From: Candidatus Zixiibacteriota bacterium
Lineage (GTDB): Bacteria > Electryoneota > B3-LCP
Assembly (NCBI GenBank): GCA_003599535.1
Contig: QZKQ01000102.1
Coordinates: forward strand, 1-35,214
Direction: 5' to 3'
DNA length: 35,214 bases
Shown here: positions 4,611 through 30,908 of the stretch, one piece after another
How positions within the stretch are numbered: the first letter of the stretch is position 1
How the letters are laid out: the number at the start of each line of letters is the position of its first letter
The notes under the pieces: model-generated
Seen by the model: only the letters and a program-made list of their open reading frames with translations
What the model was told of the DNA's origin: nothing
Databases searched by the model: none
Program-made: the position numbers and the translations under genes

Positions 4611-5178
4611 TTTAAAATGTAAAATTTAAAATGTAAAATGCAAAACAGCAAGGTCGACCTGGGTGAGCGGATGCTGGACTTTGCAGCAGGGATTATCCGG
4701 CTCACCACCTTGATGGAAAAGTCGTACACCGCCCGCCACATCAGTGGACAGCTGATGAGGTCGGCCACTTCCGCCGGAGCCAATTGGGAGGAAGCCGGCG
4801 GGGCGGAAAGCAGGCCGGATTTCATCCACAAGCAGCAGGTCGCCTTGAAGGAGCTGCGGGAATCTTTATTTTGGCTGCGCCTGATTGAAAAATCCGGGAT
4901 CTGTCCCCAAGAATTCCAGGACTTTGGCCGATTAAAAGATGAAGCCCGTCAGCTCACCCGGATCGTGGCCAAATCTATCATCACTTCGAAAGAAAAGCAA
5001 AAGTAAGTACCCATTATTAAATATTGCTGGTTTTGCCGGTAGAAGTCTATCTAATGGGAATAGTGGCTATTGGGATCAACAGAGCATCAGGTCTCACCGC
5101 TGCCGTGCCGAAGTCATCCATGGTTCACCCAGTCTTTTTAAATTCTAAATTTTGCATTTTACATTTTACATTGAATTT
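4611..5178. mobile_element. AT-rich inverted-repeat unit carrying a four-helix-bundle gene
   Basis: The GC-rich context is interrupted by AT-rich ends. The left end (about 4611-4645) and right end (about 5135-5178) contain a perfect 16-bp inverted pair, AAATGTAAAATGCAAA at 4629-4644 and its complement at 5151-5166, within longer imperfect A/T repeats. The start codon of the enclosed gene lies inside the left arm. Genes of this four-helix-bundle family are often found as isolated intergenic units with such AT-rich flanks, so this may be a mobilisable cassette. The mechanism is unknown and no transposase is present. Confidence 0.6.
4638..5006 (+). CDS. Four helix bundle protein (S23/Avd-like, TIGR02436 type)
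   Basis: 122 residues, nearly all helical. Family hallmarks are LGERMLDFAAGIIRLT, ARHISGQLMRSATSAGANWEEAGGAES..DFIHKQQVALKELRESLFWLRLIEKSG and a final helix. The R-S-A-T-S-A-G-A-N-x-x-E-A core is the diagnostic motif. Relatives include proteins encoded in 23S rRNA intervening sequences and the Avd accessory protein of diversity-generating retroelements; most are stand-alone with unknown function, probably oligomeric nucleic-acid-binding bundles. No reverse transcriptase or variable repeat is nearby, so a retroelement role is not supported. The ATG at 4638 lies within the left AT-rich inverted repeat; no good Shine-Dalgarno precedes it. Confidence 0.88.
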   Translation: MQNSKVDLGERMLDFAAGIIRLTTLMEKSYTARHISGQLMRSATSAGANWEEAGGAESRPDFIHKQQVALKELRESLFWLRLIEKSGICPQEFQDFGRLKDEARQLTRIVAKSIITSKEKQK

Positions 5179-21505: not shown

Positions 21506-21853
21506 ATGGCTGCTCTCAACCCTGAAATAGTCCGCCGGGCGATAGAGGCTGTTCCGGCATTCCAGAAGCATGGTACCGTGCGGGCGGTCTATCTGTTTGG
21601 CTCCCATGTCGAGGGCCGGGCTGATCAATGGAGCGATATTGATTTGGCCGTATTCATGGATGGCATCGAAGCGTGGGATCTGGATCAACGGGTTCATATG
21701 GTTGTGCAGGTGCAGAATCAGGTTGGCTATGACGTTGAACCCCACCTTTTTGCCGCATCCAATTTAGTCCGTCTGGAAAAAGGCAGCTTCGCCGAGGACA
21801 TCATCAAGCGCGGGGTGCGCATCTGGGGAGAAGAATCGGTGACCTCCGGATGA
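21506..21853 (+). CDS. Minimal nucleotidyltransferase (MNT/MntA-type)
   Basis: 115 residues. The NTase signature is complete: GSHVEGRADQWSDIDLAVF, i.e. GS-x(n)-D-x-D, with a third acidic residue in the YDVEPHLF strand. Family MNT proteins usually pair with a HEPN toxin, which they poly-adenylylate. Here no HEPN gene (R-x4-6-H motif helix bundle) lies immediately next to it: the upstream neighbour is DUF2442 and the downstream one an SDR. It may be an orphan antitoxin or have a different target. Confidence 0.9.
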   Translation: MAALNPEIVRRAIEAVPAFQKHGTVRAVYLFGSHVEGRADQWSDIDLAVFMDGIEAWDLDQRVHMVVQVQNQVGYDVEPHLFAASNLVRLEKGSFAEDIIKRGVRIWGEESVTSG

Positions 21854-25542: not shown

Positions 25543-26862
25543 ATGACCATGGATGATATCGTTAAGCTGGTTTCCGAAGATGAGATTCCCATCATCCGCC
25601 TCTGGTTCACCGATATTCTGGGGCAGTTGCGAGGCTTCGCCATCACCCCGCGGGAGCTGCCGGAGGCCCTGGAGTCGGGCCTGGGGTTCGACGGCTCGTC
25701 GGTGGAAGGCTTCGCCCGCATCCATGAAAGCGACCTGATGGCTCATCCCGACCCCGAAACTTTCACCCTGATGCCCACCGAAGTGGACGGCGCCCGTTCA
25801 GCCATGATGTTTTGCGACCTGAAAACCCCCGAAGGCCAGCCCTACGAAGGCGACACCCGCTACGTCCTGCGCCGCAACCTGGAGAAGATCGCCCGGGACG
25901 GCTACACCTTCTTCGTGGGTCCGGAACTGGAGTACTTTTACCTGAAGGACAACCTCCAGCCCCAGGTGCTGGACGAAGGCGGCTACTTTGACGCCTCCAT
26001 CGTGGGCGTCGGGTCGCTGCTGCGCAAGCAGGCGGTCCAGGCGTTGGAAGACATCGGCGTCAAGGTGGAATACGCGCACCACGAGGTAGCCCCCTCGCAA
26101 CACGAGATAGACCTGCGCTACGACCACGCTCTGACCATGGCCGACAAGGTCATCAGCTACCGTTTCCTGGTCAAGGAGATCGCCCACCAGCACGGCCTGT
26201 ACGCCACCTTCATGCCCAAGCCCATCTTCGGCGTCAACGGCAGCGGCATGCACGTGCATCAGTCCGTCTTCCAGGGAGACAAGAACCTTTTCTTTTCGCC
26301 GGAAGGGGAATACCACCTGTCCAAGTTCGCCCAGTCCTACATCGCCGGCATCCTGACCCACATCCGGGAAATCACCGCGGTGCTGAACCAGTGGGTCAAC
26401 AGCTACAAGCGGCTGGTGCCGGGCTACGAGGCGCCGGTGTACATCTCCTGGGGGCAGAAGAACCGTTCCGCCCTGGTGCGGGTGCCGCGTTACCGCATCG
26501 GCAAGGAGAAGTCCACCCGCATCGAACTGCGCAGCCCCGACCCCGCCTGCAACCCCTACCTGGCCTTTTCCGTGATGCTGGCCGCGGGCATGAAGGGGGT
26601 GCAGGAAAACTATCAACTGCCACCCCCCATCGAAGAGAACATCTACGAGATGTCCCCGGTGGACCGGCACCACCACAACATCAGCACCCTGCCGGGCGAC
26701 CTGTTCGAGGCGGTGCAGGAGATGGAGAAGAGCCAACTGGTGCGCGAAACCCTGGGCGACCACGTGTTCAACAAGTTCATTGACAACAAACTGATCGAAT
26801 GGGAGGATTTCCGCCGCCAGGTCAGCCAGTATGAACTGGAAAAGTACCTGCCGGTGCTGTAA
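25543..26862 (+). CDS. glnA: Glutamine synthetase, type I (GSI-alpha size)
   Basis: 439 residues from ATG 25543, with CAGGAGAGCC upstream; a longer frame from 25474 lacks such a site. Signature segments are LGFDGSSVEGF, the metal-binding VGPELEYF (first Glu), HHEVAPSQHEIDLRY, NGSGMHVHQS, and NRSALVRVPRYR with the substrate-binding Arg. The adenylylation loop (KxxxxNLYDLP) is absent, so it belongs to the alpha form, which is not controlled by GlnE. It makes glutamine from glutamate, ammonia and ATP as a dodecamer. A terminator lies 28 bp after the stop. Confidence 0.97.
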   Translation: MTMDDIVKLVSEDEIPIIRLWFTDILGQLRGFAITPRELPEALESGLGFDGSSVEGFARIHESDLMAHPDPETFTLMPTEVDGARSAMMFCDLKTPEGQPYEGDTRYVLRRNLEKIARDGYTFFVGPELEYFYLKDNLQPQVLDEGGYFDASIVGVGSLLRKQAVQALEDIGVKVEYAHHEVAPSQHEIDLRYDHALTMADKVISYRFLVKEIAHQHGLYATFMPKPIFGVNGSGMHVHQSVFQGDKNLFFSPEGEYHLSKFAQSYIAGILTHIREITAVLNQWVNSYKRLVPGYEAPVYISWGQKNRSALVRVPRYRIGKEKSTRIELRSPDPACNPYLAFSVMLAAGMKGVQENYQLPPPIEENIYEMSPVDRHHHNISTLPGDLFEAVQEMEKSQLVRETLGDHVFNKFIDNKLIEWEDFRRQVSQYELEKYLPVL

Positions 26863-26890
26863 CGCCGCCTTCATCCCCCGCAAAACCGCA

Positions 26891-26919
26891 GGGGCGGCCG
26901 TCTTGGCCGCCCCTTTTTT
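26891..26919 (+). terminator. Intrinsic terminator of glnA
   Basis: A perfect 9-bp stem GGGGCGGCC / GGCCGCCCC (26891-26899 with 26905-26913) over a GTCTT loop, directly followed by six T residues (26914-26919). It is the clearest terminator in the window, and it separates glnA from the AT-rich gene. Confidence 0.92.
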
Positions 26920-27095
26920 ATGTATTCCATCTCGGCGTACACCCCCGAGGGGGCGGCTGCGTGGTGCGTCTCTATGGCGCATACTTTTATCCTCCCCGCA
27001 GATTTCCCTTGACTCTGGATGTATTCTGATGTATATTGACGGCGAAGAAGTAACAGGCCTGTATTCTAACCCCGAAAAGCCAGAGGAAATCAACC

Positions 27096-28709
27096 ATGTC
27101 TGAAGAAGAAAAACTCGTCGAATTAGCCCGACAAGAATTCCCGGATCTGACTCCGGCGGAAGAAAAGTTTTTACGATGCACTGCCCTTGGAAATGAGGCG
27201 AAATACGGCTCTCAAAATGTAAATGAAATAAACGTCAATGAAGCTGAGACCTGGGGACAGGACAGAACCATTCGCTCTGAAATTATCATTTGGGTTTGCA
27301 AAGGTAACCTAAATGCCTTTATCTCACATAAAGGCATAAGAGTATTGGGCGCACGGATAGAAGGCCCATTTGATATTGCCTATTTGAAACTTGAGTATCC
27401 AATACAAATAAAATTTAGCTCCTTTAAAGCAAAAATGGTTCTTTACGCGGCTCAAATTCGCTCCCTCAACCTATTGGGTACACATACTGGAGCCATCCTT
27501 GCGGATGGCTTAGTAACCGAAGGATTTATCATCCTGCGAGGTGGTTTTAAAGCATCTGGCGGAGTGCGTTTTTTAGGAGCAGAGATTGGTGGTGATTTCG
27601 ATTGCAGCTCTAGTCAGTTCATTAATCCCGATGGAGATGCACTAAATGTCTCTGGCATGAAAGTAAAAGGAGCAATGTATTTCAAAGATGGCTTTAAAGC
27701 AGAAGGTACAGTCTGGTTAGCAGGGGCAACTATCGGTGGTGCACTAGAATGCAACGGTGGAAAATTTATCAATCCAGATGGTGATGCAATTAAAGCTGAT
27801 GGAATAACAGTTAGAAGAAGTGTATATTTGAACAACGGATTCGAATCACAGGGCAGTGTTCGTTTCGTGGGAAGCAATGTTGGTGGTAGATTTGTGTGTA
27901 CAGAAAGTCGTTTTTTCAGCAAAAACAGTTACTCCATTATTATTGACGGAATGACGATTGCAGATGGCGCATTTTTCCGTAACGGTTTCAGGGCCAATGG
28001 CGTAATTAGTATGGTTGGTGCAAAAATCAATGGTGCGCTGGTAATTAAGCATGCTAATATTGCAGAAGCTATTCTTGATATGCGGAATGCAATAATTAAG
28101 ACACTCATTGATGATTCGGATAGTTGGCCAGCCTCAGGAAATTTACATTTAATTGGATTTCGTTACGATGACATCGGCGACGATTCTCCCACTGATAAAG
28201 AAAACCGCCTCGGCTGGCTCCGTCGCGTGCCCAAGGAGCATTTCAGCCCACAACCCTACGAGCAATTAGCCGAAGTCTTGCGCCGGAGCGGCCACGATGA
28301 AGAAGCCAAACAAGTATTAATTGCAAAATGGAAGGATCGGGTATCCCGAGGACCTAAGATGAGCATAGGATTGCGCCTTTGGTACTTCTTCTTCGGTCTT
28401 GTTTCAGATTACGGCTATCGCCCTTCCAGAGCGTTAGGATGGATGTTTGGAATAGTGTTTTTAGGCTGGGGCTTATTTGGATGGGGATCTCATCATCAGG
28501 CGATGGAAGCACTTGGGAATCCGCATCCTGAATTCAGCGCCTTCCTCTACTCATTGGATACCTTCTTGCCATTAGTGGATTTATATCAAGCTGACTTCTG
28601 GCATCCACTCCCCAGCTTTCTAATAGTATATCTCTGTTTTCACGTTATTATGGGATGGGTGTTGACCACTTTCCTTATCCAGGGACTGATTCGCTTGATT
28701 CGAAGCTAA
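27096..28709 (+). CDS. AT-rich acquired gene: beta-helix repeat protein with C-terminal membrane domain
   Basis: 537 residues. G+C is visibly about 40-45% against 60-65% around it, with AT-ending codons throughout, so it is a recent acquisition. The first ~75 residues are helical. Residues about 75-340 form solenoid repeats of roughly 40-45 residues with a recurring G-x-V-x-x-x-GA-x-IGG-x-x-x-C and FINPDGDA pattern, e.g. VRFLGAEIGGDFDCSSSQF and VWLAGATIGGALECNGGKF, predicting a right-handed beta-helix. After a helical linker (YEQLAEVLRRSGHDEEAKQVLIAKW) come at least two membrane helices (GWMFGIVFLGWGLFGW, FLIVYLCFHVIMGWVLTTFLI) and the SLDTFLPLVDLYQADFWHP motif. Homologues are often labelled 'membrane-associated oxidoreductase' or pentapeptide-like, without experimental support. 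Function unknown. Confidence 0.85.
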   Translation: MSEEEKLVELARQEFPDLTPAEEKFLRCTALGNEAKYGSQNVNEINVNEAETWGQDRTIRSEIIIWVCKGNLNAFISHKGIRVLGARIEGPFDIAYLKLEYPIQIKFSSFKAKMVLYAAQIRSLNLLGTHTGAILADGLVTEGFIILRGGFKASGGVRFLGAEIGGDFDCSSSQFINPDGDALNVSGMKVKGAMYFKDGFKAEGTVWLAGATIGGALECNGGKFINPDGDAIKADGITVRRSVYLNNGFESQGSVRFVGSNVGGRFVCTESRFFSKNSYSIIIDGMTIADGAFFRNGFRANGVISMVGAKINGALVIKHANIAEAILDMRNAIIKTLIDDSDSWPASGNLHLIGFRYDDIGDDSPTDKENRLGWLRRVPKEHFSPQPYEQLAEVLRRSGHDEEAKQVLIAKWKDRVSRGPKMSIGLRLWYFFFGLVSDYGYRPSRALGWMFGIVFLGWGLFGWGSHHQAMEALGNPHPEFSAFLYSLDTFLPLVDLYQADFWHPLPSFLIVYLCFHVIMGWVLTTFLIQGLIRLIRS

Positions 28710-29118
28710 ACCTCATCAAGTGAGTGGTAAGACATCATCAGCGAAATCAACTAAATCCGCGAAAATCTGCGATTCTGACGAGAAGGGCTGGAGGTCAAAT
28801 CCGTTCTATCCGTTGAATCCGTTAGTCCGTGACTCTGATGATAAACACCCGGCGGACTGCGCGGCGGATCAGGTTGAGAGACGAAGGTAAGTTACTGTGC
28901 CGCCGCTTGGTCCGCCCTGCAAACTGACGCTCAATGGCCACAACGGAGCGTGGCCCTCCGGATCGCCGGTCAATCACATCTCCTCGAAATACCCGCCCTT
29001 ATCCATTCCTTGAAAATTTATCCCCTTGGCGCCAACCCCCTTCCCGCCACTGCGTATTTACTGGTGAATTCAAACACGGCACAACTTCACCCACCATTGT
29101 CAACAGATGGAGTCCACC
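28710..29118. other. Intergenic region between the AT-rich gene and superoxide dismutase
   Basis: About 400 bp without a convincing gene. It holds an imperfect 17-bp inverted pair at 28851-28867 and 28900-28916 (GGCGGACTGCGCGGCGG against its near-complement, 32-nt spacer). There is also a small hairpin at 28936-28955 (GGCCAC/GTGGCC) and low-complexity runs of ATCCGT-like units near 28799-28835, similar to (and inverted relative to) those at 17402-17440. No sigma-70 promoter close to consensus was found for the sod gene. Confidence 0.5.
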
Positions 29119-29736
29119 ATGGAACAGCAGTCTTTGCCCCCTCTCCCGTATGCCTATGATGCCCTGGAGCCGCACTACGACGAGCAGACCCTGCACCTGC
29201 ACCACGACATTCATCACGCCGGTTATGTCAAGGGCTTCAACACGGCTATCGAGAAGCTGAATGAAGCGCGCAAGAACAACGACTATTCCCTGATCAAGCA
29301 CTGGGAGCGGGAATTGGCCTTCCACGGATCGGGCCATATCCTGCACTCCATCTTCTGGACCAACATGTCCCCCCAGGGCGGCGGCGAACCGCAGGGCGAA
29401 CTGGGGCAGGCTATCCAGGACGAATTCGGTTCCTACCAGAACTTCAAGAACCAGCTCGTGCAGGCTACCGTGGCGGTGGAAGGGTCGGGCTGGGGCGTCC
29501 TGGCCTACAACCACGTCCTGAACAAGCTGATGATCCTGCAGTGTGAAAAGCACCAGGACCTGACCGTCTGGGGCGCCGAACCGCTGCTGGTGATTGACGC
29601 CTGGGAGCACGCCTATTATCTGAAATACCAGAACCGCCGCGCCGACTTCGTCAACGCCTTCTTCAATATCATTAACTGGGACGATGTGACCCAGCGGTAT
29701 GAGAAGGCCCGCCAGAGCCAGTCCGCCACGGTCTGA
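29119..29736 (+). CDS. Superoxide dismutase, Fe/Mn family
   Basis: 205 residues from ATG 29119, with GGAG 7 nt upstream; ATG 29107 would add four residues. Metal ligands can be placed: His28 in LHLHHDIHHAGYV, the second His in FHGSGHILHSIFWTNM, and the late Asp and His of VIDAWEHAYYLKYQNRR (D-x3-H). The GSGWGVLAYN core is conserved. Metal choice (Fe or Mn) is uncertain. It dismutates superoxide in the cytoplasm and, with the hemerythrin-PAS protein next door, suggests a small oxygen/oxidative response locus in an otherwise anaerobic-leaning gene set. Confidence 0.96.
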   Translation: MEQQSLPPLPYAYDALEPHYDEQTLHLHHDIHHAGYVKGFNTAIEKLNEARKNNDYSLIKHWERELAFHGSGHILHSIFWTNMSPQGGGEPQGELGQAIQDEFGSYQNFKNQLVQATVAVEGSGWGVLAYNHVLNKLMILQCEKHQDLTVWGAEPLLVIDAWEHAYYLKYQNRRADFVNAFFNIINWDDVTQRYEKARQSQSATV

Positions 29737-29753
29737 CCCTGCCTCCCGGTTCC

Positions 29754-29779
29754 GGCCCTCCCCGGCGACGGGGAGGGCC
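29754..29779 (+). terminator. Strong hairpin after superoxide dismutase
   Basis: An 11-bp perfect stem (29754-29764 with 29769-29779) closed by a GCGA tetraloop. No proper T-tract follows, so its terminator role rests on position (18 bp after the stop) and stability. Confidence 0.6.
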
Positions 29780-29845
29780 CGGGGCCGCGCTTTCGCCTGC
29801 CGGCCAGCCCGCACCCACATCCACGGCGAAATCCTTAATTAACTG

Positions 29846-29874
29846 TTGCTTGCGAGATCAGAAATCACTATATT
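29846..29874 (+). promoter_or_regulatory. Sigma-70-type promoter for the hemerythrin-PAS gene
   Basis: TTGCTT (29846-29851) and TATATT (29869-29874) are spaced by 17 bp in an AT-rich patch about 42 nt before the ATG at 29916. Just downstream, GTTAATTCCTTAAC (about 29878-29891) is a 5-bp inverted repeat that could be an operator near the transcription start. Confidence 0.55.
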
Positions 29875-29915
29875 ATGGTTAATTCCTTAACAACCTACAC
29901 GAGGACCGGAACCCC

Positions 29916-30908
29916 ATGAATCCTTTTGCTCAGGAATCCGGCATCGCGCCGGAAGGGCACCCCATACATACCTTGATGGAAGAGCACCGCGCCTTCCTGG
30001 AACGGGCCAACCGGTTAATCGCCGCCGCCCAGGCTCTGAAAGCCAAGCCGGAAGCCGCGGCCGCTTCCGCCGAACTGGAGCAGGCCCGCGCCGTGGTCGC
30101 CGACCTGAAGGCGGGCCAGAGCCACTATCTGCGGGAAGAGAACGTCATCTTTCCGCTTCTGGACAAGCACGGCTTTTCCGGGCCGCCCACGGTCATGTGG
30201 GCCGAACATGACCAGGTGCGCGCCGTGGAAAAGACCCTCTTCCAGGTGATGGAAGCAGCCGCCACGATGGCCTGGTTCGACTTCACCGCGCAACTGGACC
30301 GCGCCGCCCAGCAGTTGGCCCAGCTCCTCACCACGCACTTCTATAAGGAAAACAACATCCTCTTCCCCACGGCCATGGAGCTGCTGTCACCGCAGGAATG
30401 GGACGAAGTCCAGCGGGAATTCGACCGCCTGGGCTATACCCCGTTCACGCCGGGCCGGGAGAAGGCCGCCCCGGCCGCCGGCGCCGAACCGGCCGGGGAA
30501 AGCGCTGCCGGGGAAATCACCCTGCCCACCGGGACGCTGCCGCGGGAGGTCCTGGCGGCCCTGCTGAACACCCTGCCGGTGGAAATCACCTTCGTGGACC
30601 ACGAGGACCGGCTGCGCTACTTCAGCCAGCCCCGGGACATGATCTTCACCCGCAGCACCGCGGCCCTGGGCACCAAGGTGCAGAACTGCCATCCGGCCAA
30701 GAGCCTTCACCTGGTCAACCAGATCCTGGCGGATTTCCGCGCCGGCGCCCGCGACGTGGCCGAGTTCCACATCCACATGCAGGGCAAGTACGTCTACATC
30801 CGCTACTTCGCCGTGCGCGATCCGCAGGGAAAGTACCTGGGCTGCATGGAAGTGACCCAGGACATTGCCCCGATCCAGCAGATCGAAGGGGAGAAGCGGC
30901 TGCTGTAG
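29916..30908 (+). CDS. Hemerythrin-PAS protein (DUF438-like)
   Basis: 330 residues. The N-terminal hemerythrin four-helix bundle (about 15-170) shows its carboxylate/histidine ligands in HTLMEEHRAFLERAN, SHYLREENVIFPLLDKHGF, MWAEHDQVRAVEK and LTTHFYKENNILFPTAMELL. A variable Ala/Pro-rich linker follows (about 180-205). The C-terminal PAS domain (about 215-325, LPVEITFVDHEDRLRYFSQPRDMIFTRSTAALGTKVQNCHPAKSL) has the NCHP motif typical of the PAS_10/DUF438 group. Known relatives are suspected oxygen or nitric-oxide sensors. There is no output domain, so signalling would need a partner. It is 180 bp after the SOD gene and has its own promoter. Confidence 0.92.
   Translation: MNPFAQESGIAPEGHPIHTLMEEHRAFLERANRLIAAAQALKAKPEAAAASAELEQARAVVADLKAGQSHYLREENVIFPLLDKHGFSGPPTVMWAEHDQVRAVEKTLFQVMEAAATMAWFDFTAQLDRAAQQLAQLLTTHFYKENNILFPTAMELLSPQEWDEVQREFDRLGYTPFTPGREKAAPAAGAEPAGESAAGEITLPTGTLPREVLAALLNTLPVEITFVDHEDRLRYFSQPRDMIFTRSTAALGTKVQNCHPAKSLHLVNQILADFRAGARDVAEFHIHMQGKYVYIRYFAVRDPQGKYLGCMEVTQDIAPIQQIEGEKRLL

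Follow-up and report, generated by a model that had tools for sequence, protein, structure and literature searches.

What does the solitary, AT-rich gene encode that stands out from its surroundings in the window (the whole 35,214-nucleotide stretch of DNA analysed here), and what might its product do? The ORF begins with ATG, encodes 537 amino acids and is present in one copy in its own genome. Its GC content is 0.438 compared with 0.634 for the remaining window, and its GC3 is 0.388 compared with 0.82–0.90 for seven other window ORFs. A terminator-like hairpin follows the preceding gene, which from a reading of its translation is probably a glutamine synthetase gene, and an Fe/Mn superoxide dismutase (SOD) gene starts downstream at 29107. 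Since the hairpin closes the upstream transcript and SOD begins at that position, the 537-aa gene stands alone. An Rfam scan of 26000–30000 gave no match, and a promoter-like site at 27009–27037 was not above chance (2 found vs 3.3 expected).

A preliminary description of this DNA had noted the sharp departure in composition and the isolation between a terminator and SOD, both of which we confirm, and had proposed horizontal acquisition. The acquisition is well supported by composition, and the distribution is patchy as well. A search of 39 genomes of the host phylum found the gene in 2, both within the window's taxonomic family (2/6), and the copy of the second carrier (G004) lies at a different, unlinked place. 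The methylmalonyl-CoA mutase / B12-binding / glutamine synthetase block is partly conserved in related genomes. In the window, the 537-aa gene lies between this block and a pair at 29107–30908 (+), in which SOD is followed by a hemerythrin-PAS protein. The same pair is also adjacent in one relative (G005), on a contig other than that of the glutamine synthetase block, which suggests that the pair may be an oxygen-response unit. For the 74 homologues with sufficient flanking sequence, GC differs from the surroundings by only −0.015 on average; the strong AT-richness therefore marks the window copy and a small number of others and is no feature of the family.

Elsewhere in the window, 21506–21853 (+) encodes a small Pol-beta/MNT-type nucleotidyltransferase of 115 aa (PF18765/PF01909), separated from the 537-aa gene by other genes. 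About 115 aa is the usual size of MNT-type nucleotidyltransferases in toxin-antitoxin pairs. A 23S rRNA intervening-sequence-type protein (PF05635) is encoded at 4638–5006 (+), where the local GC drops to 0.54; the genes around it are for surface polysaccharides (Wzi, nucleotidyl transferase, UDP-glucose/GDP-mannose dehydrogenase).

To place the protein in a family, we scanned domain, defence and structure libraries with its sequence. Neither Pfam nor the PADLOC models (2023 library) gave a hit at E up to 1, PHROGs gave no useful hit, and the single NCBIfam match was below cut-off. By these sequence scans, the family is nameless in all four. A search of PDB sequences with the 537-aa query returned chance antibody chains only, and the C-terminal profile returned chance matches to CydC and histone only. 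A literature search on the family or its labels, mostly at catalogue level, found no description of it. Homologues are annotated as “hypothetical” or, for several in RefSeq, as “membrane-associated oxidoreductase”.

Genome contigs scanned with the window protein alone yielded no relatives. An alignment-based scan recovered at least 557 genome stretches that encode relatives (557 of 590 pattern-matching stretches), and judged by sequence this occurrence is far above chance. The relatives come from Planctomycetota, Cyanobacteriota, Actinomycetota, Pseudomonadota, Bacteroidota, Verrucomicrobiota and others. Plasmid-borne copies account for 35 records, and no relative was found in phage records or viral contigs. 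The structure alignment comprised 46 of 80 loci plus the window (47 members); two loci in a wrong frame were left out, as was one truncated member from the C-terminal alignment. A tree of 47 rows built on the C-terminal part contained 12 named groups. Actinomycetota formed one clade (support 99), and five Hyphomicrobiales/Albimonas rows formed another (support 100). The window copy fell in a mix of Planctomycetota, Verrucomicrobiota, Ignavibacteriota, Zixiibacteriota and LCP-89. Since no starred branch holds it, neither the donor nor the direction of transfer can be named.

The full-length AlphaFold2 model, a monomer based on the alignment of 47 members, had a mean pLDDT of 96.4 and a pTM of 0.90. 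It runs from N-terminal helices through a beta-helix and linker helices to TM1, a short helix, a loop and TM2 (Table 1). The preliminary description had proposed a solenoid of ~40-residue repeats. The solenoid stands, with strands across residues 81–360 at a pLDDT near 98, and the real period is 49 residues: the motif GF[KER][AS]xGx[VI] recurs at residues 150, 199, 248 and 297, which gives four repeats. With VIA-align, the beta-helix matched the Sf6 tailspike with a Z of 20.8 and HetL (3du1) with a Z of 17.8 over 217 residues, and such likeness to many other beta-helices says little alone. The earlier count of two or more membrane helices becomes exactly two in the model, with a re-entrant helix between them that had been overlooked.

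Table 1. Predicted features of the 537-aa gene product and of the adjoining upstream hairpin, in window coordinates.
Feature	Position	Strand	Basis or detail
Terminator-like hairpin	26890-26914	+	11-pair stem with T tail, 3′ of preceding gene
Full ORF, 537 aa; predicted P-loop channel-like protein coupled to a beta-helix	27096..28709	+	ORF, homologues, model
N-terminal helical segment, residues 1-74	27096..27317	+	model helices 3-14, 20-31, 47-52, 61-69
Right-handed beta-helix, about residues 75-366	27318..28193	+	model; VIA-align to beta-helix proteins
Linker with invariant PQPYE (385-389); helices 385-397, 401-418, 424-440	28194..28415	+	model; HalA alignment
TM1 (outer helix), residues 443-466	28422..28493	+	model; channel-fold alignment
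Pore-helix-like short helix, residues 482-490; conserved Y485, S486, D488	28539..28565	+	model
Filter-position loop, residues 491-504 (P492, D495, Q498, W502, P504); no TxGYG	28566..28607	+	conservation
TM2 (inner helix), residues 507-536; invariant G520-W521 at hinge-glycine place	28614..28703	+	model; profile alignment

In the model, TM1, the short re-entrant helix and TM2 are arranged as in the subunits of P-loop cation channels. The preliminary description had called the protein a membrane-tethered solenoid; a membrane part does accompany the solenoid, and the term understates it, as this part is folded like a channel pore. With the full model, the top Foldseek match was HalA (PDB 9nyi), an effector of the anti-phage system Hailong, with an E of 0.016 and a probability of 0.97. 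K+, CNG, Kir and HCN channels filled many further rows. Residues 380–537 were then aligned and folded separately, so that one domain would not fill the list. Modelled on their own, these C-terminal 158 residues reached a pLDDT of 93.5. In a VIA-align comparison of this domain with 381 chains, HalA again came first (Z 9.8, rmsd 3.7, 139 of 158 residues, HalA 182–356), where a Z of 8–10 in a helical domain can reflect a mere common arrangement.

P-loop channels, HalA included, made up 49 of the best 50 VIA-align rows by title, the other row being an untitled membrane protein; channel matches included GORK, a NaK chimera, Kir, SthK, MthK and KcsA. Foldseek without VIA gave the same families for the C-terminal domain, again in 49 of the best 50 rows by title. 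No Foldseek match of the full model or the C-terminal domain had an E below 0.001. Among the best 50 rows, the other channels align from about fragment residue 43 or later, and HalA alone also covers the linker, from residue 4. The linker, whose PQPYE is present in 47/47 rows, aligns with HalA from residue 182 onward. In the viral library, two giant-virus entries, one of them named a K+ channel, matched with probabilities of 0.98–0.99. The pore domain was also matched by PDB 9ma5_A (2026, “CryoEM structure of a transmembrane protein”) with a Z of 8.1.

The TxGYG/TxGFG signature of K+ channels was present in none of the 46 members with that region. At the place of TxGYG lies a conserved motif, YS[LI]DxxxPxxxxxQxxxWxP. 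Y485 is kept in 45/46 rows, Q498 in 42, W502 in 40 and P504 in 39; D488 occurs in 44 rows with Glu in the other 2, and P492 is invariant (46/46), as are G520 and W521 in TM2 (each 46/46). Conservation at these filter-region residues is among the highest in the protein. The pore helix of KcsA contains W68-S69-V70-E71-T72, which we take to be similar to Y485-S486-L487-D488-T489, so that E71 would match D488.

We also made a profile-profile comparison with Ion_trans_2, using 11 proteins from the host's relatives. In the alignment, G520 coincides with the glycine conserved in the inner helix of Ion_trans_2, and the gap that opens at the pore helix hints that the filter loop is longer. The match was not significant, with a Prob of 1.65 (all under 3%) and P of 0.02–0.03. 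The local profile score was 16.8, compared with a maximum of 13.4 in 50 membrane control windows (from few families) and with 10.6 and 11.2 for reversed profiles. Another alignment mode scored 12.1, the controls applying only to the mode that scored 16.8.

By the positive-inside rule, membrane proteins keep positively charged flanks in the cytoplasm. The linker has a net charge of +4, the C-terminus has +2, and the outer loop has −5 with no Lys or Arg. This pattern places both ends inside and the beta-helix in the cytosol. The surface interaction that had been suggested earlier is thus unlikely: a cytosolic beta-helix fits a sensor domain and speaks against surface display. Across the family the beta-helix is neutral to acidic, with a median net charge of −5, which does not favour a nucleic acid ligand.

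The prediction shows a single chain made of a rod-shaped beta-helix in the cytosol, conserved linker helices, and a P-loop pore module of two TM helices that has the fold of K+ channels. Our main reading, to which we give a probability of roughly 0.6, is that the protein is one subunit of an ion channel of non-K+ P-loop type, which a ligand gates through the beta-helix. Four subunits would assemble around the pore. The beta-helix would bind a cytosolic ligand or partner, and the PQPYE linker would carry the change on to TM2, the inner helix, where a hinge at Gly520 would let the pore open or shut. The filter loop, with P-x-x-D-L-x-Q instead of TVGYG and probably longer, may pass cations or a small solute without K+ selectivity. 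The likeliest trigger would be a signal linked to ion balance, from stress or a metabolite, with infection second; the most likely use of such a channel is control of ion balance or stress.

Neighbouring genes bear on this use. The neighbour scan covered 95 proteins from 42 loci (93 of 145 candidates plus two from locus L005). Genes were taken from a simple ORF caller, so some frames are possibly wrong, and the survey ran without six loci where the caller missed the main gene. Pfam gave housekeeping-type families (best 25 of 197), and two nSTAND1 proteins were among the 95 neighbours. No fixed partner gene was found across the family. Within the fetched flanks of 23 Hyphomicrobiales loci, we found MrpA-like genes at 15, an RND pump at 14, SLC13 at 11 and AbgT at 11, with the families verified on representatives. 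Mrp or RND is near 22/23 of these loci, and none lacks all four of Mrp, RND, SLC13 and AbgT. Since the Hyphomicrobiales loci are one clade, they count as one observation; these neighbours lean to ion and solute balance. No Mrp/efflux-type neighbours were found in other clades. A conserved arrangement recurs in many Rhizobium-type genomes (seven loci): the gene is flanked by an Mrp/Mnh antiporter cluster on one side and by an SLC13 permease on the other.

The absence of the K+ filter (0/46) means that the pore might not conduct. Two channel-derived TM helices would then only tether a partner-binding beta-helix scaffold, an idea to which the non-significant sequence homology to channels also lends itself. 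A mere anchor would not need the high conservation of Y485, D488, P492, Q498, W502 and G520-W521, and we regard it as improbable. The RefSeq label would make the protein a membrane-associated oxidoreductase. This rests on homologue annotation, and in Streptomyces, as far as the consulted part of PMC6302529 goes, the label is a table entry only and the gene is comparable by label alone. The protein matches no Pfam or NCBIfam family at cut-off, its model has no cofactor-binding fold, and we consider this function highly implausible.

A role in defence requires a closer comparison with HalA. According to part of PMC13275509, HalA is an ion channel that poly-dA from HalB blocks, and part of PMC12657230 describes how a phage exonuclease lifts this block. 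The full-length Foldseek alignment spans 376 columns on a chain of 333 residues, so that the N-terminal half of HalA is matched to the beta-helix part. The full-length TM-scores are low (0.20/0.30), and hence we infer, and do not directly observe, that the whole architecture is shared. The profile of 47 members found no hit among PDB sequences up to E 10, HalA included, and HalA was not found when sought by sequence via a pentapeptide protein. None of the scanned flanking genes encodes a HalB-like nucleotidyltransferase, and the sole Pol-beta nucleotidyltransferase in 30 window ORFs scanned is the minimal 115-aa one, 5.2 kb off. With no HalB neighbour, the gene was not filed as Hailong. Our best reading by analogy is that the protein may work like HalA, which falls short of showing it to be Hailong.

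An anti-phage guard channel of HalA type would be held shut by a bound nucleic-acid or nucleotide signal and would depolarise the cell once a phage destroys the signal. The rank of HalA as top structural match, and the sole one that also covers the linker, argues for this, as does an AT-rich, patchy and probably moved gene. On the Acaryochloris plasmid pMB04, the family member is split over two CDSs directly after a Trypco1 gene, and a second Trypco1 gene and a caspase-family gene follow few kb beyond. Trypco1 belongs to conflict systems described in parts of PMC7159879 and PMC10907252, and by analogy the pMB04 group is like a conflict-system cluster. A pentapeptide-repeat gene is found there together with the two Trypco1 genes, the caspase-family gene and the split family member (L005 2439-5501, 10023-12068). 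Against a guard channel stand the want of an adjoining HalB-like enzyme or fixed partner, a near-neutral or acidic beta-helix unlike a nucleic-acid binder, and the lack of copies in the phage and viral sequences searched. PADLOC on the 95 neighbours gave scattered single hits only (27 models, each of the best 25 in one member only). The survey for defence islands that had been proposed beforehand thus gave no island pattern. The candidacy for defence put forward in the preliminary description keeps the fold likeness to HalA and the one Acaryochloris plasmid, and it gains no island pattern and no partner. We consider a guard channel unlikely, if somewhat less so than a non-conducting anchor.

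The beta-helix-gated channel that we prefer may be one of many. It is conceivable, at a little under even odds, that the relatives form a large unrecognised family of stand-alone channels for ion or stress control in at least ten phyla. Their beta-helix would be the cytosolic sensor that opens and closes a P-loop pore, the pore would have a new and highly conserved non-K+ filter, YSxDxxxPxxxxxQxxxWxP, and HalA would be one specialised branch of this much wider class. A family in hundreds of genomes, labelled “hypothetical” or “oxidoreductase”, gains a testable ion-channel role. If HalA is of the same class, the family shows a possible origin of a phage-defence channel and other things that such channels sense. 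For channel biophysics, the question is the conductance of a P-loop in which Pro, Asp and Gln replace TVGYG.

Compared with known systems, the P-loop channel fold, the beta-helix fold and one architectural parallel, HalA, are familiar, and the filter is unusual. HetL and Qnr, which are pentapeptide-repeat/beta-helix proteins, share the right-handed beta-helix. The pentapeptide-repeat consensus is tandem A(D/N)LxX, and no tandem pentapeptides (PF00805) were found in the 537-aa protein by Pfam at E up to 1. It differs from HetL and Qnr in its 49-residue repeat and its fused membrane pore-like module. The 2TM K+ channels (KcsA, MthK, KirBac; PF07885) have the same order of TM1, pore helix, loop and TM2, with the inner-helix glycine placed alike. 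Unlike them, the 537-aa protein has no TxGYG and no Pfam hit, and its profile match is weak. HalA remains the best fold match, both of the full model and of the C-terminal domain with the linker.
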